Part shown: positions 1 to 12,322 of the stretch, in pieces
How positions within the stretch are numbered: the stretch's first letter is position 1
Layout: each line of letters begins with the position of its first letter
Source: a virus
IMG/VR virus record: IMGVR_UViG_3300020053_000679
Location: 1 to 23,660 of that record
DNA: 23,660 bases
Strand: one strand, 5' to 3'
Notes under the pieces: generated by a model
The model's database searches: none
What the model was told of the DNA's origin: nothing
Seen by the model: the letters and a program-made list of their open reading frames with translations, nothing else
Translations under genes and position numbers: made by a program

Positions 1-152
1 CTGTTGTCATCATAAGCGTGTGTCCAAGAATAAAGACCGTTTTTGTGTTCTAGGTCCTTAACCCACAATTCGTGAGTATAACCGTTCCTGTATACCAACC
101 GTATCTTTTCTAATTCCTCGGTGTGGGGGAATTTAATTTTAAAATGAAGCAT
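1..152 (-). CDS. Partial gene, N-terminal 50 residues, unknown function
   Basis: This is an open frame that starts at an ATG (152-150) and runs off the left edge of the window, so only the first 50 residues are seen. It begins MLHFKIKFPHTEELEKIRLV and is rich in charged and aromatic residues, with no signal peptide. A good ribosome binding site (GAGAGG) lies just upstream, and a TATAAATA late-promoter-like box lies 16 bases before the ATG. The gene follows the TauD-like gene by 14 bases. I do not recognise the family. In T4 the gene after gp44 is the small clamp-loader subunit gp62, but nothing in this fragment lets me claim that. Confidence 0.7.
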   Translation of the reverse strand, partial: MLHFKIKFPHTEELEKIRLVYRNGYTHELWVKDLEHKNGLYSWTHAYDDN

Positions 153-166
153 ATAACCTCTCTGCT

Positions 167-925
167 TTATTTATAATCAAATGCAATACGATGTAGCACT
201 CGGTTTTCCATTCCTTCAAAATCCCATCGCTTGTGTATACTTAACCATTGCTCACTGATAACAACATCACCATCTTGCCAATCATGATGATATGCAAACT
301 CAGGTTGAAGTACGTGCTCTTTCAGTCTTGACATTATACTATTAAATTCGTCCTGTGTCTTGCCTACCATGCCAAATATTTGCAAAAACGGGAAATACAA
401 TCCAGTGATACCGGCATCATTTGTATGCACCAACTTGAACGGCTTGTCTGTTGCATGATGCTCAACAAAGAAACTACTATCGCTATAAGAACCTTTCTTG
501 TAGCCTAGTGTTATCTCAATGTCTTGTATCTCTTCTTTCAAATCGTCAGGCAGTTCTCTGTATGCGTGTGCCATATCAATCCAGCTGGTTCTACTTCCTT
601 CTGAACCTTTCACTGAGTACAGCCAAATGAGAGGGCTCCTATCAGGGTTAGATGCTTGGTTGGCATGCCAATCCAATGAAGAAGTATGTCCGAACAAGCC
701 TTCTTCGCCGTGTTCATTCTTTTCGCCCGTAACTCTAAGGATGTGATCACCTATAGCAATGTGCTTTGTTCTTTCATGCTTCAGATACTGGCACTTTCCT
801 ATCGACTGACAAAACTCTATCTCTTCTTCCTGGGTCAAATTCTGATTGCGAATTACGACTACAAGATCGTTAAGAAGAGCGTCCTTGATACCTTGAACAT
901 CAGTTAAATCGTGAAACTCTTTCAT
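167..925 (-). CDS. TauD/TfdA-like 2OG-Fe(II) dioxygenase family protein
   Basis: The 252-aa protein has the general layout of the TauD/TfdA clavaminate-synthase-like family, cytosolic enzymes that use Fe(II) and 2-oxoglutarate to oxidise small substrates. The region LDWHANQ (85-90) sits where TauD has its WHTD iron-binding motif. Residues 220-246 end with SIHKR (His231) and NRVLHR (Arg242), the expected distal iron ligand and 2-oxoglutarate-binding arginine. The HxD aspartate appears to be Asn89, so iron binding may be altered. Its ATG shares one base with the gp44 stop (TAATG), which implies translational coupling. The substrate cannot be inferred. The fold assignment is fairly sure; catalytic activity is not. 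Confidence 0.75.
   Translation of the reverse strand: MKEFHDLTDVQGIKDALLNDLVVVIRNQNLTQEEEIEFCQSIGKCQYLKHERTKHIAIGDHILRVTGEKNEHGEEGLFGHTSSLDWHANQASNPDRSPLIWLYSVKGSEGSRTSWIDMAHAYRELPDDLKEEIQDIEITLGYKKGSYSDSSFFVEHHATDKPFKLVHTNDAGITGLYFPFLQIFGMVGKTQDEFNSIMSRLKEHVLQPEFAYHHDWQDGDVVISEQWLSIHKRWDFEGMENRVLHRIAFDYK
168..175 (-). promoter_or_regulatory. Candidate T4-type late promoter box TATAAATA before the edge gene
   Basis: TATAAATA on the minus strand lies 16 bases before ATG 152, but it also encodes the end of the TauD-like protein (Tyr-Lys-stop). Chance is a fair alternative. Confidence 0.3.
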
Positions 926-1869
926 TATTTAAATTCTACATTTGCCATGATTTCTGTTAAGCAGGCTGTGAGATTAATCTCTTGGTCTGCTACAAACGCC
1001 GCCTTGTACTGATAGTCTGCAATGAGCAAAACCATTTGAGGAACGGATTTAATCTCAGGAAGTAATGAGTCAAAGATGTAACGGAAAATTCCTTGTGGAT
1101 CTGTGTCCACATTGTTAGCAACCCACTGTCGCATCTTCTTCCAATCTTTGCCACGTAAAGAGTTAATCAACTCCTTAGTGTTTACTTCTGCAATGTTGCT
1201 GAGGATACCTTCGTCGATTATACCTGCCACAGAGTATCGCTGTAGTTCATTAATAACACGGCGATAGTCTGGGAAGTATTTAATTAGAAGTTCTGCTAAG
1301 ACGTTTTCCTTAAACTCTACACCCTCATTGTTTAGGATAACTTTCATACGATCCATGAACTTTGCTGCTAGCTTTGGTTTGTTACCATTGCCAGTTTTAA
1401 ATTCAATAACCGTTGTCCTAGAATGTAAGGGAGAGATAATTCGGTTCTTGTAGTTACAAGTAAAAATGAACCTACAATTCTCAGAGAATGTTTCAATAAA
1501 AGCACGTAAGGCAGGCTGTACTGAATCTTTATTCAAGTAGTCTGCTTCGTCAATTATTACTACCTTAGTCTTACCCTCGAAACTAACTGCACTCGCGAAC
1601 TGTTTAATTTTAGTCCTAAGTGTATCAATCTGACGACCCTCGTCCGAACCATTAATAATAATGTAGTCCGCACCAAGTTCTTCACACAGGGCTCTAGCTA
1701 CTGTAGTCTTACCTGTACCTGCTGTTCCGCATAGTAACAGGTTAGGAACTTCTCCTTGTTTTAAGAACTGCGAAAAAGTATTTTTTGTGTCCTCGGGGAG
1801 AACACATTCTTCAATTGTTCTCGGACGATACTTTTCCACCCATAAGAATTTTTCTTGCACATTTTCCAT
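925..1869 (-). CDS. 44: Sliding-clamp loader large subunit, gp44-like AAA+ ATPase
   Basis: The 314-aa AAA+ protein loads the gp45 clamp onto primer-template DNA using ATP. The start WVEKYRPRTIEE is the classic clamp-loader N terminus. Walker A is GTAGTGKTT (48-56) and Walker B is VVIIDEAD (103-110). The arginine-finger motif is LHSRT (149-152), a variant of the usual SRC. Length agrees with T4 gp44 (about 319 aa). The start ATG at 1869 is preceded by AAGGTGA. It lies in a replication block with gp45 upstream, but a peroxiredoxin gene and a 58-aa gene separate the two. The small subunit gp62, next to gene 44 in T4, is not seen; a TauD-like gene takes that position. Confidence 0.95.
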   Translation of the reverse strand: MENVQEKFLWVEKYRPRTIEECVLPEDTKNTFSQFLKQGEVPNLLLCGTAGTGKTTVARALCEELGADYIIINGSDEGRQIDTLRTKIKQFASAVSFEGKTKVVIIDEADYLNKDSVQPALRAFIETFSENCRFIFTCNYKNRIISPLHSRTTVIEFKTGNGNKPKLAAKFMDRMKVILNNEGVEFKENVLAELLIKYFPDYRRVINELQRYSVAGIIDEGILSNIAEVNTKELINSLRGKDWKKMRQWVANNVDTDPQGIFRYIFDSLLPEIKSVPQMVLLIADYQYKAAFVADQEINLTACLTEIMANVEFK

Positions 1870-1900
1870 AACTCACCTTAACCATAATATAATAAATAAT

Positions 1901-2506
1901 TTAAGAACCGAAACGTTCTTTAATATCGGCGCTGTCATCTAAGACTAGATCGATATGTTTTCCCTCAGGCTCTACTGTGGCTTCGTCGTCGCCTGTGATA
2001 AAGTCATCGCCTCTGAGGAAGGCCAACACATTTTCAGGGGTAGAGATTTCATAAGGATCGTCGGCTGTATTGTGTCCGAATCCTTTCTCAATAAACCCTT
2101 GTTCAATCTCGCCATCGTTTACAACCATAGCGTATCTCCAAGAGCGTAGTCCAAATGTTACATGATCCTTTGCTACAGACATACCTAGACGATTAGTAAA
2201 AGCTACAGAACCATCTGGAATTGCCTTAACATTTTTAATGTCTAGACTTTCGAACCATGCGTTCATTACGAACGAATCATTTACAGATAAGCAATAAACT
2301 TCATCAATGCCATTCTCAATGAACTCGTTATAACGAAGATCAAACCCTGGGAGTTGGAAGTTAGAACACGTAGGAGTAAAGGCACCTGGCAATGCGAATA
2401 AAACTACTCGCTTGCCTGAAAATACATCTTCACTCCTCAGAGTTTGCCATTCATTGTCAACTCTAGTTTGCCATTCAACGGTAGGAACTGCGGATGAGAA
2501 AAACAT
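1901..2506 (-). CDS. Peroxiredoxin, Prx5/AhpC-TSA family
   Basis: The 201-aa thiol peroxidase would reduce hydrogen peroxide and alkyl hydroperoxides in the infected cell. The peroxidatic motif is PGAFTPTCS (40-48) with Cys47. The typical Prx5 segments VYCLSVNDSFVMNAW and GLRSWRYAMVVNDG follow, the latter holding the conserved Arg. The cysteine of VYCLSVND is the only other obvious one and matches a Cys common in bacterial Prx5. There is no glutaredoxin fusion, although some bacterial Prx5 proteins have one; a separate glutaredoxin is encoded at 12845-13084. The ATG overlaps the 58-aa gene's stop by one base. About 40 residues follow the core domain as an acidic tail. It sits inside the replication block, which is an odd place for an antioxidant gene. 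Confidence 0.9.
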   Translation of the reverse strand: MFFSSAVPTVEWQTRVDNEWQTLRSEDVFSGKRVVLFALPGAFTPTCSNFQLPGFDLRYNEFIENGIDEVYCLSVNDSFVMNAWFESLDIKNVKAIPDGSVAFTNRLGMSVAKDHVTFGLRSWRYAMVVNDGEIEQGFIEKGFGHNTADDPYEISTPENVLAFLRGDDFITGDDEATVEPEGKHIDLVLDDSADIKERFGS

Positions 2507-2682
2507 TATTCGTCACCTTCTTCAAATGGATCTAATTCGCCTTTAAGGATTTTCCTCATCATAGATAATGCGGCGCCGTCTCTGTTAAAAATGTATTCAA
2601 CATTCTCGCCATTTTTATCTACTTCAAGAATCCACCCGTTTGAGGCCTGCCTTAAAACAAAAGTCATTTTGTCGTTTTCCAT
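2506..2682 (-). CDS. Small acidic protein of 58 residues, unknown function
   Basis: A short gene fills the gap between gp45 and the peroxiredoxin. It starts at ATG 2682 with a strong ribosome binding site (AGGAG, 8 bases upstream) and stops in TAATG shared with the next start. The product begins MENDKMTFVLRQASNGWILE and ends LDPFEEGDE, so it is acidic at the C terminus and has no membrane segment. Tight coupling on both sides and a perfect initiation region identical to that of gp45 make it a real gene. The family is not recognised; at 58 residues it is far too short to be gp62 (about 187 aa in T4). An accessory factor linked to replication is possible but is only inferred from position. Confidence 0.8.
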   Translation of the reverse strand: MENDKMTFVLRQASNGWILEVDKNGENVEYIFNRDGAALSMMRKILKGELDPFEEGDE

Positions 2683-2696
2683 AATATACTCCTATA

Positions 2697-3353
2697 TTAG
2701 ATCTCTGAAGAACGTTCCAAAGCCAACCAGTATTTTAAATCGCTACTAGTGGATTGAAGGAACATGAATTTCTTCTGAGATAATGTTACTTTATAGGCTC
2801 CAGGGACAACTTTCAAGTTCTCAATCTGTAGTCTACAATCAAATTCGACACCAGCGTCTCCAATAACTTGCTTGAAGCTATTCGATTTAGGAGTGCTAGG
2901 GTCGCCTACAGTAAGTGTTACCTTACCATCTTTCGCTACAACCGAGAGCATAGGCGCTCCAGTAATTGCGGCTGCTTTCATAATCATACCCAAGTCATCT
3001 GCAGACAAGTCGAAACTGTAGAAGTCGTCTACTTCAATTTGTTTATCAGGGGCGGATACAATAATGTTAGGGTCTGCATAAAAGTATTCAAACTTTGAGC
3101 TACCCTTAGATACTGTAATGGATTCGTCTCCAAAAGATACTTCTTGATCTTCCATGAGAGTTAAGAGAGCCAACAATCCATTTAGATCATAGATTGCAAA
3201 CTCTTTGTCAAAAGTTTCTGATACTTCTGCCCGAGCAAAGATGTTCTTTCCAGTACTGATAGTAGAAAGAACATTTCCTTGTCGAACTAAAATATTAGAA
3301 TTGACGGTTGCGAAATTCTTGAGAACGTCAAGAGTTGATTTCGATATTTTCAT
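2697..3353 (-). CDS. 45: DNA polymerase sliding clamp, gp45-like
   Basis: The product is the trimeric processivity clamp that tethers the phage polymerase and, in T4, also activates late transcription through gp55 and gp33. The start MKISKSTLDVLKNFATVNSN closely matches T4 gp45. The total of 218 aa agrees with the T4 protein (228 aa). I chose ATG 3353 over the upstream TTG at 3365 because GGAG lies at the right distance before it and the protein then aligns with gp45. It is the first gene after a strong promoter (3383-3411) that overlaps a perfect palindrome. Downstream are the 58-aa gene, peroxiredoxin and gp44. Confidence 0.95.
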   Translation of the reverse strand: MKISKSTLDVLKNFATVNSNILVRQGNVLSTISTGKNIFARAEVSETFDKEFAIYDLNGLLALLTLMEDQEVSFGDESITVSKGSSKFEYFYADPNIIVSAPDKQIEVDDFYSFDLSADDLGMIMKAAAITGAPMLSVVAKDGKVTLTVGDPSTPKSNSFKQVIGDAGVEFDCRLQIENLKVVPGAYKVTLSQKKFMFLQSTSSDLKYWLALERSSEI

Positions 3354-3374
3354 AATATACTCCAATTGTTTTAT

Positions 3375-3393
3375 GTCCGTGTATTATACGGAC
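3375..3393. repeat. Perfect palindrome over the gp45 promoter -10 box
   Basis: GTCCGT (3375-3380) and ACGGAC (3388-3393) form a 6-bp perfect inverted repeat separated by 7 bases that overlap the TATAAT box. Transcription should start near 3376, so one arm would not be in the RNA. This favours a protein-binding operator in DNA over an RNA hairpin. Function is inferred. Confidence 0.55.
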
Positions 3394-3411
3394 TTTCATG
3401 ATAAATGTCAA
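3383..3411 (-). promoter_or_regulatory. Sigma70-like promoter for the gp45 operon
   Basis: On the minus strand a perfect TTGACA (3411-3406) is followed after 17 bases by a perfect TATAAT (3388-3383). The start site would lie near 3376, about 23 bases before the gp45 ATG. It belongs to a set of six near-identical minus-strand promoters in the window. Host RNA polymerase should read it, so it is probably an early promoter. Confidence 0.85.
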
Positions 3412-3432
3412 GTACGAGTTGTACCGTTTTAA

Positions 3433-3756
3433 TTAGGGTGTGTGCTCTACACCGTTCACAAAAATTTCAATAGTGACACCGTCAGATTCGCCACGCTGTT
3501 TAATGTCTTGTAAAATTTCTTTACCGCCATTTGCCTCAATAGCAGCCAGGTATGTTTGAAAAGTTTCCTGATTTTCTGCGGTGAGGACTGCTTCTGCAAC
3601 GGTTCCGTCTACATTCACATTGTAAGTTAGATCAATTCCGTGCGTTGTCATTAGGGAGCGTCTTTCGATATCCCAATCCGCTTGTTCAGCCGTAGCGGTT
3701 GGAAAGTCAACCAATACAGTAGGGCGGGTATATTTGTAGGTTACTACATGAGCCAT
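3433..3756 (-). CDS. Hypothetical phage protein, 107 residues
   Basis: The product begins MAHVVTYKYTRPTVLVDFPT and is soluble, acidic and Thr/Glu-rich, with no signal peptide or membrane segment. The ATG is preceded by GGAG at 7 bases. A TATAAATA box lies 40 bases upstream inside the preceding gene, so it may be expressed late. Alternating short hydrophobic stretches such as VTIEIFVNGV suggest beta strands, as in small virion or decoration proteins, but I do not recognise the family. It is the last gene before the gp45 promoter. Confidence 0.75.
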   Translation of the reverse strand: MAHVVTYKYTRPTVLVDFPTATAEQADWDIERRSLMTTHGIDLTYNVNVDGTVAEAVLTAENQETFQTYLAAIEANGGKEILQDIKQRGESDGVTIEIFVNGVEHTP

Positions 3757-3781
3757 TTTTAATCTCCGATTAGGTTATAAA

Positions 3782-4087
3782 TTACTTAATACCACTATTT
3801 ATAAGATTTTTCTTATTGACTTCATGAACATGGAGTGCAATTATACCGTAGTGGATAACCTTCAACAAGTCCTTTCGCCAATCTGCTTCGGTTCCTTTAT
3901 TGCCGTACCGTTGGGCATACTTTAAGACATTTCCAATACAAAAACCCTCACCGTGTCCGCCATCAATGATGAACTCGGTTGCTTGATATTTGTTTTGTGA
4001 ATAATGCTGACTATAAGTCGCATCAATATAGTCTTTGATTTCTTTAAGGGCTTCTCCCTCGTTGTATTTATACTGCGGCTGCTTCAT
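3782..4087 (-). CDS. DUF3310-like protein
   Basis: The 101-aa protein carries GFCIGNVLKYAQRYGNKG (48-65) followed by WRKDLLKVIHYGIIALH. This matches the pattern of DUF3310 proteins (FxxGNxxKYxxRxGxKG, DLxKAxxYL), which are common in phages and of unknown biochemical function, though sometimes labelled nucleotide kinase. The ATG at 4087 has GAGG 7 bases upstream and overlaps the previous gene by 20 bases. The last codons contain a TATAAATA box that may drive the next gene. Family call is fairly good; the function is unknown. Confidence 0.65.
   Translation of the reverse strand: MKQPQYKYNEGEALKEIKDYIDATYSQHYSQNKYQATEFIIDGGHGEGFCIGNVLKYAQRYGNKGTEADWRKDLLKVIHYGIIALHVHEVNKKNLINSGIK
3796..3803 (-). 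promoter_or_regulatory. Candidate T4-type late promoter box TATAAATA
   Basis: The minus strand reads TATAAATA within the end of the DUF3310-like gene, 40 bases before the ATG of the 107-aa gene. T4 late promoters consist of just this -10 box, recognised by gp55, and gp55 is encoded in the window. An 8-base AT-rich word can occur by chance. Confidence 0.4.
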
Positions 4088-4601
4088 CTTTTAACCTCAA
4101 ATAAGTCATTAATATGTATTGGTCCTCGTCCGCGGGGGCAATACTGTATTCATAAAGCCAAGCGTAAGGGAATACCGTTAGATACCCCTGTACCTGCTGT
4201 GTCTCTATGCCTGCGTGTTCAAATTTTATATTACCACCTGAGACAGTGTTTAGATGATACATCATTGCTAAGCGTCTCTTAGGGGTTCCATAATTATCAA
4301 AGAATACTTTAGCACCCTCTCCCTTTGGTATTTTAGTTACCACCACGTGCTCAATCTCAGAACTTTTAAGCCTAAGAGAATTGACTACATACTGTGGTAC
4401 TAGTGCCGAATAGGACCCAACAGAGGAGAGTATAGGGGCGCTAAGATTTGTCCTAAATTCACTATCCACATCTGAGAACAATAAGCACCCATTATGTGAA
4501 TGATGATTTTGAGGATTCTCTTCCATTAACTTAATGGTCTCCCGGCACAAATCGTCCGGGAGACCTTCGTCAAAGTATTTGATGTAATTAGAAAGTAACA
4601 T
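4068..4601 (-). CDS. Prolyl-4-hydroxylase-like 2OG-oxygenase fold, iron ligands not seen
   Basis: The 177-aa protein resembles the P4H-like 2OG-Fe(II) oxygenases common in marine phages. RRLAMMYHLNTVSGGNIKFEH (109-129) matches the core strand R-x-L-x-x-x-x-Y-L-N-x-x-x-x-G-G and GYLTVFPY (139-146) matches the later strand. The HxD motif would fall at Phe100-Phe101-Asp102 and the distal His near 150, but neither His is present. It may therefore be a non-catalytic relative, or my by-eye alignment is off. I chose ATG 4601, which gives a typical start MLLSNYIKYFDEG and overlaps the CobS-like stop by 14 bases; ATG 4613 is an alternative. Confidence 0.55.
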   Translation of the reverse strand: MLLSNYIKYFDEGLPDDLCRETIKLMEENPQNHHSHNGCLLFSDVDSEFRTNLSAPILSSVGSYSALVPQYVVNSLRLKSSEIEHVVVTKIPKGEGAKVFFDNYGTPKRRLAMMYHLNTVSGGNIKFEHAGIETQQVQGYLTVFPYAWLYEYSIAPADEDQYILMTYLRLKDEAAAV

Positions 4602-5784
4602 CTTCACCTGCATCAACTACTTCTTCCGTCGCTACTTCTTCAGTAACTTCGGGTTGTGCCGAAGGGTCGACCTTTGAGTACAAGTCAACAAACGCTGCCT
4701 TTGTATCTTCATCGAACCTGTTGACACATAACTGTACAGCCTTGAGCTTATCACCGAACATCGCGAATGCGTTAACAATGTGTTCAAGCCTACGTGTGCT
4801 AACCAACTCGTCAATGGCGCCTTCGAAGTAAGTCTTACGAATGACCTCGGACCATGTTACTAGGTGAGTAGCAAACTCTTCGTCTGTACAATTTGCTTTA
4901 GCCATTTTGTTGAGAACAATCTTTTTCTCAGTGGCTGCTGTAGGGTATTCCTGCTCTACGGTAATTGCGAATCTCTCCAGGAACGCCTCGTCCAAAAGTT
5001 GGGCGCTGATGAACTTTCCGTCATCTGAGCCTTTGCCTTTTGTATTAGCCGTTGCCACAACCGTGAACCCGGGAGCAGGAATAACAGTCTCGCCGTTCTT
5101 CTTGTTAAAGTAAGATTTGCCTTCAAGTATGGCCTGGAGGCACATGAGCTTGTTGGATCCTCTGTCTACTTCATCAAGGATAAGTACCGCGCCACGTTTC
5201 ATGGCGGTGAGGACCGGTCCTTCTCTATAAACGACGTTACCGTCAACTAGTGTATTTCCACCGATCAAATCGTCTTCGTCGGTTTCAATACTAATATTTA
5301 CACGAATCGCCTCACGGTTTAGATTCGCACATACTTGTTCAACCATCGTAGTCTTACCATTACCTGATAATCCTGAGATGAATATTGGATAGAACATTGG
5401 AGACTGAAGAACTTTCTTCAAATCTCGATAGAAACCAAAGGGCACAAACGTGCTGTCTTTGGCTGGGATTAAATTTTCTATATCCACGTTTAACTTTGCC
5501 TGTGTTAGGACCTTGGCTTCAGGAGTCTCGACTACCATCACTGGAGTCTTTGGAACTACCTGCATCTGAGTCTTTTGGATTGGCGCCATGCTTCCTTGAA
5601 ACATATTTGCCAAATTGTAAAGTCCTCGAGACACTTTCCAATCGTCTTTGTTAACAATCCAGGACGGAAAGGGTTGTCCTAGTTCTTCGGCAGTCTTTAG
5701 GATATCAATCCTTTTGAACTGTCCGTTTTGAGTATCCTTTTCTTTCAATGCCGATACCAACTGCTCTCGTTCTAATGTCATCAT
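4588..5784 (-). CDS. CobS/MoxR-like AAA+ ATPase
   Basis: The 398-aa AAA+ protein resembles the CobS subunit of aerobic cobaltochelatase and MoxR ATPases. Walker A is GLSGNGKTT (138-146) and Walker B is AVLILDEVDRGS (199-210). Such ATPases normally act with a VWA partner, and a CobT-like VWA protein is encoded two genes upstream. I chose ATG 5784 because GAGG lies 8 bases upstream and the more upstream in-frame TTG (5829) and ATG (5820) lie at or next to the predicted transcription start. It has its own promoter, a near copy of the one before the CobT-like gene. The C terminus is acidic. CobN, the large chelatase subunit, is absent from the window, so a role in B12 synthesis is not supported; a remodelling ATPase is more cautious. 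Confidence 0.85.
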   Translation of the reverse strand: MMTLEREQLVSALKEKDTQNGQFKRIDILKTAEELGQPFPSWIVNKDDWKVSRGLYNLANMFQGSMAPIQKTQMQVVPKTPVMVVETPEAKVLTQAKLNVDIENLIPAKDSTFVPFGFYRDLKKVLQSPMFYPIFISGLSGNGKTTMVEQVCANLNREAIRVNISIETDEDDLIGGNTLVDGNVVYREGPVLTAMKRGAVLILDEVDRGSNKLMCLQAILEGKSYFNKKNGETVIPAPGFTVVATANTKGKGSDDGKFISAQLLDEAFLERFAITVEQEYPTAATEKKIVLNKMAKANCTDEEFATHLVTWSEVIRKTYFEGAIDELVSTRRLEHIVNAFAMFGDKLKAVQLCVNRFDEDTKAAFVDLYSKVDPSAQPEVTEEVATEEVVDAGEDVTF

Positions 5785-5831
5785 AATATAGTCCTCACTA
5801 TTTTTAAGTTGTTTTTTCATTTTATACAAGT

Positions 5832-5860
5832 ATTATACAGCCTATTTTTCTAAAAGTCAA
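5832..5860 (-). promoter_or_regulatory. Sigma70-like promoter for the CobS-like gene
   Basis: On the minus strand TTGACT (5860-5855), a 17-base spacer and a perfect TATAAT (5837-5832) are followed by TTGTATAAA. The start site would be near 5825, leaving a leader of about 41 bases that includes AGTGAGGACT, a word also in the CobT-like leader. Its upstream half is inside the 27-bp repeat. Confidence 0.85.
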
Positions 5861-5880
5861 GCAAAAAACGCACTTTTTTT
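5854..5880. repeat. 27-bp direct repeat, copy 1 (CobS-like promoter)
   Basis: These 27 bases are identical to 8891-8917. They cover the -35 box, the GC before it, an A/T-rich tract and a run of seven T on the plus strand. The copies sit at the same place relative to two promoters, so they likely act as a shared upstream element or binding site. They could also be the trace of a duplication. Confidence 0.85.
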
Positions 5881-5911
5881 CACTTTTTTTCAACTCTTTT
5901 GCCGTATAATA

Positions 5912-6595
5912 TCAATAACTTAGGCCCTTACCTAACATTCCACCCGTTTTATCTTCCGGATATTCTGTCGCAAAATCTAATTGCTCTACCAAACGTTCGT
6001 ATACCTTAATCTCAGGACGCAAGTAACGGAACAAATCTAGTCTATAATTAGGGTATTCTAGAGCCTCTTCAACTGCTGCTAGAACTTTAGGATCACTTGC
6101 GTTTATTGTTTCAACTTGTGAATAACCCAGCTGGGTTAATAGTGTGTTCATTTGTTTTAAGTGAACTATCTTACAATTCTCAGGAACTACAAACCTATCT
6201 AGCCAGTTTGCGGTATGTACATCTCGCAATCCCCAATTATTAGAATTATTATGATTGACCTGATTCCTAATGTAATGATCCCAAAAGGAAGGGTCTCTTA
6301 AGATCGGCATGGTGACGAGTTGGTTATGCAACTCTAGGTTACGGAACTTCTTTTTTTCCTGTGGGCCCAACATTAACCTCGAGACAGAGTATGTCCTATT
6401 TGATATTAAGCCACTAACATACCTTTCATAAGGGTGTCGGATAAGCATCCACTTCTGTTTCTTACCAGACTCTAAATCTAAGTAAGAACCAGATTTTAAA
6501 CCCTTGATAGATCTTAAGGTTGATGTCCCTACTTTTGGAGCAGAGATTATGACATTATTTTTATCGTTAAAAATATCCATCGGTTTTGGAATCAT
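5912..6595 (-). CDS. Sulfotransferase family protein
   Basis: The 227-aa protein shows the two PAPS-binding signatures of sulfotransferases. The 5'-phosphosulfate loop is SAPKVGTSTLRS (18-29) and the 3'-phosphate segment is LIRHPYERYVSGL (51-63). Such enzymes move sulfate from PAPS to hydroxyl or amino groups of sugars, lipids or peptides. The acceptor is unknown; a cell-surface or virion glycan is possible. Its ATG overlaps the CobT-like stop (ATGA), so the two are co-translated, and it separates the CobT-like from the CobS-like gene. No signal peptide or membrane anchor is seen, unlike eukaryotic Golgi enzymes. The gene ends just before the CobS-like promoter. Confidence 0.8.
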   Translation of the reverse strand: MIPKPMDIFNDKNNVIISAPKVGTSTLRSIKGLKSGSYLDLESGKKQKWMLIRHPYERYVSGLISNRTYSVSRLMLGPQEKKKFRNLELHNQLVTMPILRDPSFWDHYIRNQVNHNNSNNWGLRDVHTANWLDRFVVPENCKIVHLKQMNTLLTQLGYSQVETINASDPKVLAAVEEALEYPNYRLDLFRYLRPEIKVYERLVEQLDFATEYPEDKTGGMLGKGLSY

Positions 6596-8835
6596 GCTAC
6601 CATATCCATAAACTTGCTTAGGAACACTCGCTTCTGAACCTTACCTGAGTTGAACTTCTTAAAGCCTCGGAGTAGGTCGCCCTTCTTGCTAGAGTTAACT
6701 TCTAGGACATCTTCATCAATACCTAACTTCTTACCGTTAACTAGGAAACGAGCATCGTAGCCTACCTGATCTTGAATCATCAAGACACCATCTCGTCTAA
6801 AGGTTTTCATGTATTGTCCATCTTCAAAGGAGCACCAGCTAAAATCGCTATTGTATTGTTGGGTTGATTCAAACTCGTAGTTTACATTTCGAGTTGAGCT
6901 ACCTTGCATTAAGTAGTAATTGATCGCTGAGGATCCTGTAGTCAACTTGAACATTTCAACTAGGAGAAGAGTGTTATAATTTCTATCTCTGCCTCGAATG
7001 TTTTTGCCGCCACCAACAATCAATTGCTTGTGTCGTAATACGGCTTTCTCATTGTGGAGTAAACCTTTACTCCAAATGCGCTCATCGTCAAACGTTGATT
7101 GCTCCCAAATCTCCACGTTATCTGTGGCTCCACCATCAGTTAGGAACAGTGTATTCATTATCTCTACATTGTTAGCCTTGCGGAAGTCTTTCACAATCTG
7201 CATTGCCATTATCAAAGTATGGTTGAGATTAGTTCCACCTAGTTGATAGTTTCTGTTCTCAACCTGCCACCATTCGTTTTCATAACGGTTTCTTGATGAA
7301 CGTATGTTAAAGTATTCTGCATAACATAACAAGTGCTTCATCGCAGATTCAGTCTGAGTCTTATTCCATGAACCTGAGAACAAATGACGGAGCATCATGT
7401 CTTCTTTTTGTAGGGCAACTTGTCCTGGAATCCTTTGAGATTCTACGGCGCCATATTCGTTGCCAGTTGTAAAGCCATAAACCTCAAACGGAATATTGAC
7501 TTTCTTACAAAACAACACCTGAGTCAACAGCTGTTCAATTGTGCCTGCCATGTTACCAGACATACTGCCTGACATATCAATAAACATACACATACCGTGG
7601 TTTTTACCGTTGGGCACAACCGTTGTCTGTTTGAAGAGATCTTCTGTTATCTTGTAAGCCCAAAGCTTGTCCTCGTTCAACTTACCTGTTTTAGAAATCT
7701 TTGCCTTAGACATCTGTGTTGCTTTACGCTTCATCTCGAATTGCTGAACCATATGATTAACAACCGAGTTATTTTTTGCCTTGAATGTTGAGAGTAGTTC
7801 AGTTGCTACCAGCTCTGTATCTTTAGCAGTGTCTGCATAATAGTCTGGCATAATCTTGAAACTCTTGTTCAAGCCTGTGTACATCACGCTCGCTGGGACT
7901 ACATACTTTTTCCAGTCCTTAACCTCAGGGATGTCTATGTAAACCGGTGTCAAGCTATCTATATCTATCAACTTCTTTTCGTTTTTTCGGAAAGCTTGAT
8001 CTGTGATTGACATCTCGCCGTCGCTTTCCATAAACTCGTCTAACAAGTCCTGGGCAGTTGACTCGCCTTCTTCGGGTTCTTCTTCTTCATCTGAGTCTGA
8101 GTCTGAAGGGGTGTTGCCTGATTGATTTGTTTCTTCGGATTCTTCTTCGTCGTCCTCCTGTTCATCATCTGAGCTAGGAGGAGGGGGAGGGGGAGGAGTA
8201 TCCATTTCATCGTCGTCTTCGAAGTCCTCGTCTGAGTCTTGAGGAACATACTTTTGCTGTTCCTTCATTTCTTCGGCTTCTTTTTGAGAGTTACCATACA
8301 ACTCTTGAGCTAACTGCTCAACGTCTGCCCATGTCTCAGTTTTTGCTACACGGTCTACGAATACTTGTTCTTCGTCTGTAAAATTGATGCCTAGGAGAGA
8401 ACCTACTTTAAAGTGAAGATTGATTCTGTCAATTAGTGGAAGTTCGTTAACGTCTAAATCCTTAACACCGAAAAAGTCTCGGGCAAAAAGTTCTCGGTAA
8501 CCACCGTAGAAACTTTTAACTAGTCCAGGATAACGTTCTTTTACTTTACGCTCGATACGAGCATCTTCTACAATGTTGAGGAAGCCTTTGAGCTTGGGGT
8601 CTTTAGAAACTGAATCGTGCCAGCCTTCCTCAGGAGTCTCTAAACCGTGTCCGACTTCGTGTCCTACTAAGAGGTCATAAAGATCAGGGGAGATGTCTTT
8701 CCATTGGGGGAGGAGGATCTTTCGATTCTTAAGGTCAAATGCTGCTGTCGGAATGTTGGCGTGTTCTACCTGAACATTCTCCGTCGCTAGCAGTTTTGCT
8801 AGTATCGACTTTTGGTTGTTTATTTGTATCGTCAT
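6592..8835 (-). CDS. CobT-like protein: metallopeptidase-like domain, acidic linker and VWA domain
   Basis: The 747-aa protein has three parts. An N-terminal zinc-metallopeptidase-like domain contains HEVGH (59-63) and NIVEDARIER (87-96), which could supply a third metal ligand. A strongly acidic linker (about 200-260) includes seven prolines (214-220). A von Willebrand A domain follows, with a complete MIDAS motif DMSGS (420-424) and a later LTDGG. This matches the CobT subunit of cobaltochelatase and the VWA partners of MoxR ATPases. The CobS-like ATPase encoded downstream is the probable partner, bound through the MIDAS. The ATG (8835) has GAGG upstream. No CobN is present, so the target of this pair is unknown. 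Confidence 0.85.
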   Translation of the reverse strand: MTIQINNQKSILAKLLATENVQVEHANIPTAAFDLKNRKILLPQWKDISPDLYDLLVGHEVGHGLETPEEGWHDSVSKDPKLKGFLNIVEDARIERKVKERYPGLVKSFYGGYRELFARDFFGVKDLDVNELPLIDRINLHFKVGSLLGINFTDEEQVFVDRVAKTETWADVEQLAQELYGNSQKEAEEMKEQQKYVPQDSDEDFEDDDEMDTPPPPPPPSSDDEQEDDEEESEETNQSGNTPSDSDSDEEEEPEEGESTAQDLLDEFMESDGEMSITDQAFRKNEKKLIDIDSLTPVYIDIPEVKDWKKYVVPASVMYTGLNKSFKIMPDYYADTAKDTELVATELLSTFKAKNNSVVNHMVQQFEMKRKATQMSKAKISKTGKLNEDKLWAYKITEDLFKQTTVVPNGKNHGMCMFIDMSGSMSGNMAGTIEQLLTQVLFCKKVNIPFEVYGFTTGNEYGAVESQRIPGQVALQKEDMMLRHLFSGSWNKTQTESAMKHLLCYAEYFNIRSSRNRYENEWWQVENRNYQLGGTNLNHTLIMAMQIVKDFRKANNVEIMNTLFLTDGGATDNVEIWEQSTFDDERIWSKGLLHNEKAVLRHKQLIVGGGKNIRGRDRNYNTLLLVEMFKLTTGSSAINYYLMQGSSTRNVNYEFESTQQYNSDFSWCSFEDGQYMKTFRRDGVLMIQDQVGYDARFLVNGKKLGIDEDVLEVNSSKKGDLLRGFKKFNSGKVQKRVFLSKFMDMVA

Positions 8836-8868
8836 TAAAAGTCCTCACTTTTATTAATTTATACAAGC

Positions 8869-8897
8869 ATTATAAACTCTTTATCTGCAGAAGTCAA
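8869..8897 (-). promoter_or_regulatory. Sigma70-like promoter for the CobT-like gene
   Basis: TTGACT (8897-8892) and a perfect TATAAT (8874-8869) on the minus strand are separated by 17 bases. The start site would lie near 8862, 27 bases before the ATG. Sequence on both sides closely resembles the CobS-like promoter, including TTGTATAAA just after the -10 box. Confidence 0.85.
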
Positions 8898-8917
8898 GCA
8901 AAAAACGCACTTTTTTT
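8891..8917. repeat. 27-bp direct repeat, copy 2 (CobT-like promoter)
   Basis: Identical over 27 bases to 5854-5880 and in the same position relative to the -35 box. Beyond base 8917 the two loci diverge, though both stay T-rich on the plus strand. Confidence 0.85.
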
Positions 8918-8938
8918 GAATTCTTTTTCCTTATTAAA

Positions 8939-10435
8939 TCAGTAGTTTAGGGATAAAGTCAACAAATATTCACGTCCGCCGGCAGTATATTGGGGTAAAA
9001 TCTCGAATTCTCTATCAAAAACGTCCCTAATTTGGAACATTACATTGTAGGTTCCAAAGTCTTTTCCTATATGTAACTGTGCTGATTTTACATCCTCGAG
9101 CGGTGTTTTGTCAACGTCTCGTCGTCCGTTTTGGTATGCTAGTTTGAACCCGTAGGTATAACCCTTGTAGTCGTCCTCAAGCATGATTGCTGTACGAAGT
9201 TTAGGGATCCTTGGAAGATCTGAATGTGTGACTGCTATAACTGTCTTGAATTTTTTGTAGTATGCTAGTACCTTAATACCCTTGGTACTGTAGGAGCCTG
9301 TGTTCACATACTGGTTATTGACATAGTCGTAATCTATACCCTCGTCAAATTCGTAGGCGAAAGCTGAAAAAATTTTATATCGTACGTCGACACCTTGCCC
9401 CTCCTCTGCGTTGAGAAACCGATTTGGTGATACCCAACCGTCGCCGTTCGTTTCATATAGAGTCGGTCGCCTATAACTGTTCCCTACACTAATTGAAAAG
9501 TCTGAGGTTCTAACACCTACTTTATATACGAATACATCATCGTTCTCATATCTTAGTCCTGCATTAAACAAATCATAGGTAAGAAAAGAGTAGACTGATC
9601 CAACTGTTAACTTTTCGGCGCCATTATCCTCTCTTTCTACGTTTGCTCCAAGTAGTACATAATCGTTGACATGCTTACGAGTATCTAAATAGTATCTTTG
9701 ATTTTTAGAAGAGTAGCTCTCTTCACCGTTTCTCAAAAATGTTTGTTCGTTTTCTACGAAACCAAATGTTGCATTTTCGCCTTGTATTGATAACTCGTGC
9801 TTCCTACCCTTTTGTTCACAATCGTCAGACTCCCAGCATGAATCATAATCGTATTGGTAATCTGTTAAAGCATAATTTAATACACCCGTTTGAAGTCTTA
9901 AAACATTGCTATGGTAGTCGTCTTCTTCCTCATTGGTGTTCATTACGCTACCATTCGATGCTTGCTTAGATGCTATAGAAAAGTATTCGTCGCCAATTGA
10001 AACATATTTTGAATCACTGCCTGCTTGAGCTATGAAGTGTTTTCTAAGTTTGTCTGTTATAAAAACAGTGCCTGCTAAACTACCCGAGCCTGTGAGTACA
10101 CTATTGGGTCCATGAGCAATCATGATCTCTTGGTATTGTTGAGGTAGATCGTTTGCCCAGTCATACCAACCAGTAGAAGGATCGTTAACGGGTACGCCGT
10201 TCCTAAAGACTCTGGTATGTGTAGAACTCTGTCCGCGATCTCTAAAAGAAGAAAATCCACCAATACCACCTGGGGTAAAAACCATTGATGGTAAGATGGA
10301 TTCAATTGTTGAAGTGTTAAGTGCAGGGTCTACTTCTACTTTGTTAATAGGTTGCCCTACAACAATAACTTCTTCTATTGTCTGTCCGTGTGCAATTGTG
10401 CTCATAAGAGCGAAACATAATATAAGGTGTTTCAT
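8939..10435 (-). CDS. TonB-dependent outer-membrane receptor, BtuB-like
   Basis: The 498-aa protein has a signal peptide (about 1-17, hydrophobic LILCFALMSTIAHG), then a TonB-box-like EEVIVVG (21-27). A plug domain covers about 30-130, with FRDRGQSSTHTRVFRNGVPV (64-83), DWANDLP and GPNSVLTGSGSLAGTVFI (109-126). The rest (about 365 residues) is a likely beta barrel ending in an aromatic residue (LLTLSLNY), the usual outer-membrane assembly signal. This matches TonB-dependent transporters for cobalamin, siderophores or similar ligands. It is shorter than E. coli BtuB (614 aa), mainly in the barrel. It is last in an envelope module with a His-rich secreted protein and an M15 peptidase. A receptor gene is unusual in a phage; substrate unknown. 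It implies a Gram-negative host. Confidence 0.9.
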   Translation of the reverse strand: MKHLILCFALMSTIAHGQTIEEVIVVGQPINKVEVDPALNTSTIESILPSMVFTPGGIGGFSSFRDRGQSSTHTRVFRNGVPVNDPSTGWYDWANDLPQQYQEIMIAHGPNSVLTGSGSLAGTVFITDKLRKHFIAQAGSDSKYVSIGDEYFSIASKQASNGSVMNTNEEEDDYHSNVLRLQTGVLNYALTDYQYDYDSCWESDDCEQKGRKHELSIQGENATFGFVENEQTFLRNGEESYSSKNQRYYLDTRKHVNDYVLLGANVEREDNGAEKLTVGSVYSFLTYDLFNAGLRYENDDVFVYKVGVRTSDFSISVGNSYRRPTLYETNGDGWVSPNRFLNAEEGQGVDVRYKIFSAFAYEFDEGIDYDYVNNQYVNTGSYSTKGIKVLAYYKKFKTVIAVTHSDLPRIPKLRTAIMLEDDYKGYTYGFKLAYQNGRRDVDKTPLEDVKSAQLHIGKDFGTYNVMFQIRDVFDREFEILPQYTAGGREYLLTLSLNY

Positions 10436-10438
10436 ATT

Positions 10439-10795
10439 TTATTTGACGATGACGCGCTCAATAATTTCTACACAGGTTCCATACCCAGATTTTTGATTGC
10501 TGCAAGGGAAGTGTTTGTTATAGGCATCATAATGATCTCGTGTCCTATAACGTCTGCGAGTTTGTGTTCGGTTAGGATCAATGATTGTATAAACCTCACC
10601 GTTGGGTCCGTATACTGTAATAGGCTGTGGGTGATAATGCCCGTGTCCATGCCCGTGATTACTTTTCTTGTTAATAATTTCTCCAAGAATAAAACCACCT
10701 ACGACACCGCCGATAACGTCCTTTGTATCAGCAGCCGCAACGGGTGCTGTGTGCATGGTGCCTGCGATTAATAATAGTCCAATTAAATATTTCAT
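10439..10795 (-). CDS. Secreted His-rich protein with glycine-zipper segment
   Basis: The 118-aa protein has a clear signal peptide ending near APVAAA (17-22). A Gly-rich hydrophobic segment follows (IGGVVGGFILGEII, 28-41), like the glycine-zipper segments of outer-membrane proteins. A histidine cluster HGHGHGHYH (47-55) could bind Zn, Cu, Ni or Co. The C-terminal part is basic and has Cys98 and Cys108, which could form a disulfide in the periplasm. The start ATG has AGGAG 6 bases upstream, and the stop is 3 bases before the TonB receptor gene. A metal-binding helper of the receptor is an attractive but unproven guess. Confidence 0.75.
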   Translation of the reverse strand: MKYLIGLLLIAGTMHTAPVAAADTKDVIGGVVGGFILGEIINKKSNHGHGHGHYHPQPITVYGPNGEVYTIIDPNRTQTRRRYRTRDHYDAYNKHFPCSNQKSGYGTCVEIIERVIVK

Positions 10796-10804
10796 AAGTT
10801 TCTC

Positions 10805-11266
10805 CTATGCGGTCAGTCCTAAAGAGTACTGAGTTTTGCCATCAACTCGTGATGCTGTTAATGATTTGCCTCTGTTTCCTTCTGTGTTATACGACACATG
10901 AACCCAACCTGAGTCTGGGATACCTGACGTATAGAACTCTAAGATTACTTGATCAAAGTCTGTATTTTCCTCAATCCATTTTGCTAAATGATAATTGGGT
11001 ACGCCGGCTACTTCAATATCTGCTGCTTGTCCTTTGCAATGCTGGGACTTAGAGCTACCACCTACTGCTTTATTAAGTTCGTCGCCTCGATAACCACTGT
11101 TAATGTTAACAGGGCCAAAGTGGTCTCTAACTTTCTGCAGAACATTCTCACATAATGCGATTGCATTGTCCAAATGTTCTTTGGGCATAGAATTGTCTAA
11201 GCCTCGTCTTGTAGCAGTTTGCGACTTTTCAAATTCAGCTAGAGAAAAGTTTTTAGATAGTTTCAT
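10805..11266 (-). CDS. M15-family peptidoglycan peptidase, probable endolysin
   Basis: The 153-aa protein matches peptidase M15 DD- or LD-carboxypeptidase-like enzymes that cut peptidoglycan peptides. The zinc-binding motif is SQHCKGQAADIE (74-85) with His76 and Asp83, and the third ligand is His123 in WVHVSY. The segment VNINSGYRG (53-61) is also typical. There is no signal peptide, as expected of a phage endolysin that needs a holin, though no holin was recognised nearby. The gene has both a strong early-type promoter (11310-11338) and a late TATAAATA box. A role in lysis is likely; a virion-associated role is possible. Confidence 0.88.
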   Translation of the reverse strand: MKLSKNFSLAEFEKSQTATRRGLDNSMPKEHLDNAIALCENVLQKVRDHFGPVNINSGYRGDELNKAVGGSSKSQHCKGQAADIEVAGVPNYHLAKWIEENTDFDQVILEFYTSGIPDSGWVHVSYNTEGNRGKSLTASRVDGKTQYSLGLTA

Positions 11267-11296
11267 AGTCTTGCTCCAAAATGTTACTATATCTCT

Positions 11297-11304
11297 TATT
11301 TATA
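11297..11304 (-). promoter_or_regulatory. Candidate T4-type late promoter box TATAAATA for the endolysin
   Basis: TATAAATA on the minus strand lies 31 bases before the endolysin ATG, in noncoding DNA. The gene's product fits late expression, which makes this the best late-promoter candidate in the window. Confidence 0.6.
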
Positions 11305-11309
11305 AAACT

Positions 11310-11338
11310 ATTATAATACCGTTATGTTATAATGTCAA
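11310..11338 (-). promoter_or_regulatory. Sigma70-like promoter for the envelope module
   Basis: Perfect TTGACA (11338-11333) and perfect TATAAT (11315-11310) on the minus strand, 17 bases apart, precede the M15 peptidase. The -35 box overlaps the end of the ClpP-like gene. The start site would be near 11303, inside the late-type box. Confidence 0.85.
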
Positions 11339-11958
11339 GATGCTTTAGCTTGTTTTGGTACTCTAGGTTTGCGGGGTGCTTTTGTTTTGGGGGCTGGATT
11401 TTCTCTAATATCATTACGCTTAGAAAGACGTTTAATCACTTCCTTAGAGTCCATCCAATAGTCCTTACCCTCAATAACAGATTCAATCTCTTGGGGAGTC
11501 ATAAAGTCTGAATAGATATCAGTGAGCAAACGCTTTGCCCAAGTATGTTCTGCTAGAGCTCTAGAGATCAGTTCATTGCCTTTACCCCAATTACCTGAGG
11601 AATAATTGTGTACTAAGAACTGGGTATGATCCGAAACCTCACAAATGTCTGCACTTAGAAAAAGGAATGTTGCGGCACTCATACAAGCACCTTCAATTGA
11701 TGCAATGATCCTTCCTTTACATTCAGACATAGAACGTAGAAGTTGGATCGTTGTCATGATATCGCCACCGTAACAATTGATGTGCAATATCACAACATCG
11801 TTCTCGGCACAATTTCTAAAACATTGATTCCAATTTACATATTCTGATGGCCCTTCAATCGTATCATTTAGATACAAATCAATTACTCTACCAGCAATCC
11901 TCTCATAAATGTTTTGATTGCTGTTATTAATAATGTCGTCAATTTTAAAGTCGTTCAT
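11335..11958 (-). CDS. ClpP-like serine protease
   Basis: The 207-aa protein resembles the ClpP/crotonase-fold peptidase family S14. The oxyanion and substrate strand is INCYGGDIMTTIQLL (60-74). The likely triad is Ser94 in GACMSAATFLFL, His117 in LVHNYSSG and Asp166 in GKDYWMD. The tail after 185 is basic and Pro/Lys-rich. Phage ClpP homologues can act in prohead maturation or alter host proteolysis; no Clp ATPase partner or capsid gene is in the window, so I cannot choose. Its start lies inside the end of the 125-aa gene (14-base overlap). The gene ends where the endolysin promoter begins. Confidence 0.85.
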   Translation of the reverse strand: MNDFKIDDIINNSNQNIYERIAGRVIDLYLNDTIEGPSEYVNWNQCFRNCAENDVVILHINCYGGDIMTTIQLLRSMSECKGRIIASIEGACMSAATFLFLSADICEVSDHTQFLVHNYSSGNWGKGNELISRALAEHTWAKRLLTDIYSDFMTPQEIESVIEGKDYWMDSKEVIKRLSKRNDIRENPAPKTKAPRKPRVPKQAKAS

Positions 11959-12322
11959 AGTATCTAGTTACCGCCTTAATTTTCTCAATCTGTTTGTCAA
12001 TGATAGCCGTTCTATTAGGCCAATGGATATATTCTTTATCTGGATTCTTTTGTAAATTAAATAACAACGGTAAAATTAGATCTTCTAACTGTTTTAGTTT
12101 GTTAGCCACATCTTGTTCTACAAGTGTTCTGTGTTCATTCACCATATCAGAGGAATCTGCATTTAAGATTCTTCCTTCGATGTCTAAAAGTTTTGCCATG
12201 ACTTCATCTCTAAAGTCTTTGGTTACGTTCGTTACAGTTTCTGTAACTGATGATTGAGGTACGCTATCGTAATTTGGTTCTTCGACGGCTGTAAACCCAA
12301 AGTCAAAATTGTCATCTGACAT
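11945..12322 (-). CDS. Hypothetical phage protein, 125 residues, helical
   Basis: The product begins MSDDNFDFGFTAVEEPNYDS, with an acidic, disordered-looking N terminus. It continues with helical, coiled-coil-like segments (about 35-95) and ends in DKEYIHWPNRTAIIDKQIEK. I believe similar proteins occur in marine T4-like phages, but from memory only and without a function. The ATG at 12322 has AGGAG at a good distance and overlaps the deformylase gene by 11 bases; its end overlaps the ClpP-like gene by 14. An FxF-type N-terminal motif could be a protein-binding peptide. Confidence 0.75.
   Translation of the reverse strand: MSDDNFDFGFTAVEEPNYDSVPQSSVTETVTNVTKDFRDEVMAKLLDIEGRILNADSSDMVNEHRTLVEQDVANKLKQLEDLILPLLFNLQKNPDKEYIHWPNRTAIIDKQIEKIKAVTRYYERL

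Follow-up and report, generated by a model that had tools for sequence, protein, structure and literature searches.

The DNA considered here, which we call the window, is the whole stretch of 23,660 nucleotides (nt) of the IMG/VR virus record IMGVR_UViG_3300020053_000679, and the question that it raises is why a CobT-like gene and a CobS-like gene should be preceded by one and the same word of 27 base pairs (bp). The original prediction took this word to indicate co-regulation of two partner proteins, and suggested that it is either a binding site for a phage regulator or the mark of a recent promoter duplication. In the reading that we propose, with a rough probability of 0.57, the two copies belong to UP-element promoters that would serve the host RNA polymerase, helped by the host integration host factor (IHF) or a similar protein, with the CobT and CobS units matched to each other.

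The 27-bp word and the two promoters

It is noted that the identity of the two copies is exact, as had been claimed: positions 5854-5880 and 8891-8917 agree in all letters, and 27 is the length of the longest exact repeat of the window, compared with 13 to 18 for the longest repeat in 100 order-2 Markov simulations. When the window record was searched for the 27-mer with up to 3 mismatches, these two places only were found and the reversed control gave 0 matches, with a wider likeness of 80% over 79 nt around the word (5812-5890 and 8849-8927). On the minus (coding) strand the word reads A7-GTGCG-T6-GC-TTGACTT, that is, two A/T tracts and the -35 box. At both places the hexamers and their spacing are those of a sigma-70 promoter (Table 1), and the distance from the -10 to the start codon is 33 nt for CobT and 47 nt for CobS. 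The shorter shared words that had also been pointed out are present at both places on the minus strand, TTGTATAAA after the -10 (5829-5821 and 8866-8858) and AGTGAGGACT in the leader. By hexamers and spacing, the two places look like promoters, as predicted, and specifically like strong sigma-70-type promoters of a T4-like phage. Further minus-strand promoters of the same TTGAC(A/T)-17-TATAAT family occur in the window at 3411, 11338, 18273, 21056 and 22409, and others in the records G002, G005 and G008.

The word is not confined to CobT and CobS. G002 overlaps the left part of the window at 98% and G005 overlaps its right end at 98.4%, and the three are therefore treated as one phage species. 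A look for the 27-mer beyond the window adds two more promoters of this species, both found through the 18-base core GTGCGTTTTTTGCTTGAC and both with a 17-nt spacer and TATAAT: at G005:14777-14794 the full 27-mer is exact and stands before a gene of ~128 amino acids, and at G002:10402-10419 it has one mismatch (by eye) and stands before a gene of 394 amino acids. The reversed control of this core search matched at the same extra places, which is uninformative because the core reads nearly the same backwards.

These copies bear on the explanation that the word is an operator, where a phage regulator would bind the A6-GTGCG-T6 inverted repeat beside the -35. The inverted repeat does lie inside the word, and the word stands at four promoters of the species. 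However, other genes of the species, and genes of the 162-kb relative G008, have A-tract promoters without GTGCG-T6, with forms like AAAAAGTCAAAATAATGC or AAAAAAAGTCAAAAAAATGC at the same place, and in G008 the place of the window's T-tract is taken, at the CobT and CobS promoters themselves, by a plain A-tract. The palindrome thus varies and is lost, with the tract positions constant, which is not what the predicted binding site for a phage regulator would lead one to expect. Moreover, no regulator gene was identified, and none was looked for. We consider an operator very improbable.

Other candidates were rejected. A terminator hairpin formed by the A/T palindrome was not among the calls of the terminator scan, which made 8 calls in 1-12000, none of them adjoining the CobT or CobS promoter. 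A translated leader peptide (MKKQLK...) is kept in frame by CobS and by G005, but is cut short by a stop at the G002 site. As for a late promoter in the leader, the leaders carry TATAAAAT or TATAAATT, and TATAAA after the -10 is found in just 17/166 promoters of the set described below; TATAAATA is enriched upstream of long open reading frames, with 13 occurrences in G008, 13 in G016 and 7 in G005, where 1.1, 1.3 and 0.6 are expected. For a T4 MotA box, TGCTT is present, but the full -35 is kept and the spacing differs from that of MotA boxes.

Phasing of the upstream box and of the A/T tracts

The DNA further upstream was compared in the 140-bp upstream regions of 387 promoters from 106 partly overlapping sources, which were deduplicated by upstream likeness to 166. 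It was noticed first that the word TAAGTNNTTGAT recurs upstream of TTGAC, at a distance of 31-32, 41-42, 52-53 or 62 bp. Read as its reverse complement, the word matches the IHF consensus WATCAANNNNTTR, as given in excerpts of two papers (PMC8942017; PMC5963220), at all positions that both specify. The two boxes of the window, which on this consensus are candidate IHF sites, are given in Table 1; that of CobS overlaps the stop of gene 5912-6595 and that of CobT the stop of gene 8939-10435.

The exact form YAANNNNTTGATW has 21 matches in the 166 promoters, 20 of which lie at 32, 33, 41, 42, 52, 53 or 62 bp from the -35 (4, 2, 2, 4, 6, 1 and 1 matches, respectively) and one at 122 bp. For the 20 exact boxes at 25-110 bp, R = 0.94 with a period of 10.3. 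In the opposite orientation there are 5 exact matches (at 18, 21, 21, 22 and 112 bp), none of them at 25-110 bp. Dinucleotide shuffles give a mean of 1.4 exact boxes and a maximum of 7, and letter-permuted motifs a mean of 1.25 and a 95th percentile of 4, the maximum of 21 being probably the original arrangement redrawn. If one mismatch is allowed, 30/166 promoters have the box at the phased distances (shuffles: mean 1.3, maximum 4), and outside CobT and CobS 9/128 have it (mean 1.2, maximum 4), where the CobT and CobS labels, taken from start-of-protein patterns, are approximate. When upstream regions non-identical over 70 bp are counted, so that close relatives count repeatedly, the box is present in 24/33 CobT regions, at 32 (2), 34 (1), 41 (7), 42 (3) and 52 (11) bp, and in 11/39 CobS regions. 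The CobT distances across phages imply that insertions and deletions between the box and the -35 come in whole helical turns.

The same rhythm is present in the tracts. Upstream of the -35, runs of at least four A or four T recur about every 10.4 bp, with peaks at ~7, 17, 28 and 39 bp. In the 30 box promoters R = 0.59 (n = 70 tracts, or 2.33 per promoter vs 1.38 shuffled), and in the other 136 promoters R = 0.26 (n = 208). The tract centres ~7 and 17 bp upstream of the -35 in the box promoters are consistent with an UP element, since they correspond to tracts near -42 and -52, the positions of the UP-element subsites.

It is also possible that the box is bound by a protein other than IHF, namely a phage or host activator that makes a class I contact with the polymerase alpha subunit. 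Distances of 32, 42, 52 and 62 bp centre the box near -61, -71, -81 and -91, where class I activators work. The N4 stretch of the box, at which the IHF consensus is silent, favours GT (22/29 and 24/29), so that another protein could bind there, and this preference together with the single orientation would suit a sequence-specific activator. Furthermore, an extended form of the IHF consensus (PMC5869508) includes an A-tract, about one turn away on the WATCAA side and on the WATCAA strand; the DNA on that side of the box is AT-rich, but the tracts are often T on that strand (by eye). A HU/IHF-family gene was found in 0/12 phage records, several of which are fragments; a phage-encoded IHF or HU was therefore rejected, and IHF would have to be host-supplied. 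A himA search gave 0/1 phage record, with its control over the cut-off in 1/14 genomes and hence uninformative, and literature matches on Pelagibacter IHF, judged by title and abstract start, held nothing on point.

What speaks for IHF over another ligand is that TAAGTNNTTGAT agrees with the IHF consensus wherever both specify a letter, and the distribution of the arrangement among isolates. The CobT and CobS upstream regions of 15 isolates, cyanophages and PELAGIPHAGES, were read, with the CobS region only for S-CAM9. In 25 regions of 13 cyanophages, neither a TTGAC-like -35 followed by a -10 at 16-18 nt nor a phased box is present, and a one-mismatch box occurs elsewhere in four of the 25. 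Cyanobacteria have HU but are not known to have IHF. In the Pelagibacter phage HTVC008M each TTGACT has a box upstream of it, which at CobT is exact and 51 bp away and at CobS has two mismatches and is 41 bp away (the latter by eye); yet Mosig, the other of the two Pelagibacter phages, has no box at CobT or CobS. In this small set, the pattern would fit only loosely with a box tied to host proteins. A ligand other than IHF is thus a real but lesser possibility. Note also that in HTVC008M (L174 3956, KC465899.1) the annotated GTG start of CobS falls between the -35 and the -10, so that the true start is probably further downstream.

Likeness of the CobT and CobS promoters within one phage

The two promoters were compared within and between phages at 7 CobT loci and at the best 80 of 128 CobS loci. 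The best promoter upstream of each gene was taken, and the 52 loci with both gave 30 distinct CobT/CobS pairs, which were thinned by CobS identity to 27, 18 or 11 phages. It should be mentioned that the promoter finder favours consensus hexamers and that the spacer letters played no part in finding.

In 17/30 pairs the spacers within one phage are 76-100% identical, and the shared sequence changes from phage to phage. With one phage per 90% CobS cluster (18 phages), the identity of spacers is 64% inside one phage and 38% across phages, with 0/20,000 permutations as high; with one phage per 80% cluster (11 phages), the two values are 51% and 36%, with 1/20,000. Paralogous promoters are more alike than orthologous ones in 54/63 phage pairs at 80-90% CobS identity, 131/132 at 70-80%, 159/160 at 60-70% and 47/47 at 40-60%, giving 337/339 below 80%, where the phage pairs are non-independent. 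Moreover, when all promoter pairs of a contig are ranked by their spacers, CobT-CobS comes first in 5/7 contigs. In G008 a 33-base core is identical at CobT and CobS, and the seven remaining matches of the same search deviate from it; in the 170-kb contig G016 the core of the pair is found only at CobT and CobS (up to 3 mismatches), and core searches gave exactly two matches in 8/13 records.

Because in many phages the CobT promoter and the CobS promoter have remained similar to each other, the predicted co-regulation of the two genes is plausible, although the word itself is not exclusive to them. The predicted recent duplication holds in part: promoters are indeed copied or made uniform, but the same pairing is met with in many relatives and is not one recent event.

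Some repeats in these regions were seen in passing. At the CobT promoters of L044, L070 and L088, inverted repeats of ~11-12 bp join the spacer to the ribosome-site region (by eye; in L044, TCCTCACAACC ... GGTTGTGAGGA), and such repeats would resemble an operator. In L036, L046, L057, L058, L060, L061, L063 and L066, GC-rich hairpin-like repeats (CCCCTCTAAGGGG and similar) lie in the CobT-CobS gap, upstream of CobS.

Proposed mechanism and its weighing

Core promoters, tract phasing, box phasing and concerted change are the features that the statistics above establish, and the model is built on them as follows. The 27-bp word would make up the upstream half of a phage promoter that is strong and of sigma-70 type, with two A/T tracts about one helical turn apart and the -35, followed by 17 nt of spacer, TATAAT and a GTGAGG-containing leader, and the host RNA polymerase would read this promoter early or in the middle of the infection. 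Further upstream, a site of IHF consensus lies a whole number of helical turns away, and on the same face of the helix a host DNA-bending protein, most likely IHF, would bring the A-tract array into contact with the polymerase by bending the DNA. The CobT-like gene, with the overlapping gene of 227 amino acids, and the CobS-like gene each have one such unit and would be made together as a result. In many related phages the two units have stayed similar, which would be due to recombination between them, to selection for a matched output or to both. The activity of the promoters and its timing, the identity of the ligand as IHF and the cause of the homogenisation are the steps that we infer from the sequence.

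Several results weigh against this model. For the phasing, the period, the phased distances and the motif were chosen after the data had been seen, and the promoters are not phylogenetically independent. A period of 9 is also significant for the main motif, if less so; in the opposite orientation with one mismatch there are 18 boxes at 25-110 bp with a weak periodicity (Rayleigh p ~0.007, period 10.5); two one-mismatch boxes stand off phase, at 44 and 64 bp; and the box is absent in 9/33 CobT and 28/39 CobS upstream regions. For the matching of the two units, the spacer identity is 18-65% in 13/30 pairs, the window included. Among close phages, paralogues exceed orthologues in 7/30 pairs at 90-97% CobS identity and in 0/3 at 97% or more. 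The CobT-CobS pair comes third in G017 (15 pairs) and 19th in G022 (105 pairs), and in G017 the second copy of the CobS core (up to 3 mismatches) stands at another gene and not at CobT. In the window, the CobS and CobT promoters are 47% identical in the 17-nt spacer, 92% in the tracts and 76% in the leader, so that their likeness lies in the -35, the tracts upstream of it and parts of the leader; the corresponding values for the CobS promoter and the promoter at G005:14790 are 76%, 92% and 100%, and the CobS promoter is therefore closer to the latter than to its own CobT counterpart.

A rival explanation is copying without regulation, in which the unit would be a dispersed promoter cassette that is spread and homogenised by phage recombination, with CobT and CobS merely holding two neighbouring cassettes. 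Four places in one species have the word or a one-mismatch copy, and a near-identical CobS leader recurs before a different, unrelated gene in L003 and L006-L009. The twin tracts end near the promoter edges, for example in L012 (by eye), and open reading frames of the window resemble the recombination genes gp46 and gp47 (by eye). By copying, however, it is not explained why tracts and box keep whole-turn spacing while the sequence between them changes, nor why CobT and CobS are the closest promoter pair in 5/7 contigs. We therefore regard copying without regulation as rather unlikely, and prefer the model of host-read, phased promoters with matched units.

A wider proposal, which we hold tentatively, is that the T4-like phages of this clade, whose hosts are probably not cyanobacteria, may use a new promoter architecture, consisting of an IHF site, 1-4 turns of phased A-tracts and a sigma-70 core, as a host-dependent switch, that the CobT and CobS copies may be matched by concerted evolution for a fixed ratio, and that relatives infecting cyanobacteria may have replaced the unit by another promoter type.

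Separately, there may be a second promoter class, with a TTTTGGTA / AAACGGTA / TGGTCCTA box ~10-14 nt upstream of the -35, sometimes inverted (by eye). Its sites are window 3411 (minus strand), G005:18542 and 76873, G008:5281, 10237, 60325 and 71079, and G016:117180 and 157923, and in G016-like phages similar letters are also found in the spacer (by eye). This box is possibly the site of a second regulator.

Genes of the window

The coordinates are collected in Table 1. The CobS-like protein is to be read as a CobS homologue that lies outside the definition of cobaltochelatase CobS, with 83.2 bits against TIGR01650 (cut-off 558.55); among solved structures the closest is midasin, followed by CobS. 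The CobT-like protein has the motifs HEVGH and DMSGS (by eye) and, with 15.9 bits against TIGR01651 (cut-off 759.05), likewise lies outside the definition of cobaltochelatase CobT. The phage families of the CobT- and CobS-like proteins are annotated as peptidase and porphyrin biosynthesis. For the gene between them, the predicted sulfotransferase could not be upheld, with no Pfam or PHROG match at E <= 0.001 and no NCBIfam match at E <= 0.1; in the 95 records searched, this gene is found only in the window and in the loci of G002 and G003, of the same species. The window also encodes a T4-type late sigma factor (phrog_234), and some of its open reading frames resemble other T4-like replication genes (by eye).

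Table 1. Features at the CobT-like and CobS-like genes (positions in the window)
Feature	Position	Strand	Remarks
CobS-like AAA+ ATPase gene	4588..5784	-	AAA_5, phrog_249; CobS homologue below equivalog cut-off
CobS leader	5785..5829	-	TTGTATAAAATGAAAAAAC...; likely Shine-Dalgarno GTGAGG within AGTGAGGACT (5799-5790); likely start ATG 5784
CobS core promoter	5832..5860	-	TTGACT, 17 nt, TATAAT; 11/12 consensus matches
27-bp word, CobS copy	5854..5880	-	A-tract, GTGCG, T-tract, GC, TTGACTT; UP-element-like tracts and -35
IHF-like box, CobS	5910..5922	-	TAAGTTATTGATA; reverse complement is an exact WATCAANNNNTTR; starts 62 bp upstream of -35
227-amino-acid gene	5912..6595	-	between CobT and CobS; 4-nt overlap with CobT end
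CobT-like gene	6592..8835	-	phage 'peptidase' phrog_459, 617.7 bits
CobT leader	8836..8866	-	TTGTATAAATT...; likely Shine-Dalgarno GTGAGG within AGTGAGGACT (8849-8840); start ATG 8835
CobT core promoter	8869..8897	-	TTGACT, 17 nt, TATAAT; 11/12 consensus matches
27-bp word, CobT copy	8891..8917	-	identical to CobS copy
IHF-like box, CobT	8937..8949	-	TAAACTACTGATT; one mismatch; starts 52 bp upstream of -35

Directly upstream of CobT there is a gene with a BtuB-like TonB plug domain (8939-10435, minus strand), which has a match in 32/95 partly overlapping records, 7 of the window species and 25 others, the latter mostly 33-38% identical and upstream of CobT. It has no match in 50,697 phage isolate records, and in a scan of genome contigs for this TonB receptor gene 47 stretches fit the pattern and no relative was confirmed. 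At the left end, a TauD-family gene (167-925, minus strand) is absent from G002 and G003, which are 98% identical elsewhere and show an alignment gap at 177-923; it would be a recent gain or loss.

Meaning and comparison with known systems

The control of transcription is poorly known in T4-like phages of non-cyanobacterial marine hosts; for pelagimyophages, an excerpt of PMC7029224 reports unsatisfactory results from methods directed at middle and late promoters. A helically phased, IHF-like promoter class would provide a testable rule by which early-type promoters of metagenomic phages could be found, and perhaps also hint at the type of host. The matched CobT and CobS promoters would suggest that expression must be balanced between two proteins that are usually called cobalamin genes, yet lie outside the cobaltochelatase definitions. 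Sigma-70 phage promoters, UP elements, IHF at phage early promoters and the promoter early stem-loop (PeSL) cassettes are each already known. Among the literature matches listed, IHF sites at marine T4-like phage promoters were not found by title and abstract start, nor was the combined architecture with helical stepping or a concerted evolution of this pair found among the matches listed.

Phage lambda pL is an early promoter with an IHF site and an UP element. The promoters described here are also like Pe of phage Mu, a phage early promoter with an IHF site, but differ from it in that many T4-like promoters are concerned, that the putative site steps by whole helical turns and that phased A-tracts lie between.

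They are also like the early promoters of marine T4-like cyanophages in being sigma-70-like promoters for the host polymerase, the early genes of these phages being thought, in an excerpt of PMC2984593, to be read by unmodified host polymerase. By contrast, the CobT and CobS regions of the 13 cyanophages, without the TTGAC-like -35 and the phased box, have in many cases (L176-L188) a CTGTCC-like word, sometimes a terminator-like hairpin, and then a TATAAT-like box, often TGCTATAAT; this arrangement is perhaps a cyanophage middle promoter.

Finally, we note the likeness to the PeSLs, repeated early promoter units dispersed in T4-like genomes, which an excerpt of PMC4503421 describes as mobile regulatory cassettes of T4-type phages linked to module shuffling. 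Whereas a PeSL joins a stem-loop terminator to an early promoter (same paper), neither promoter of the window has a terminator-like stem-loop beside it, and the recurring parts here are the box, the A-tracts, the promoter and the ribosome site.

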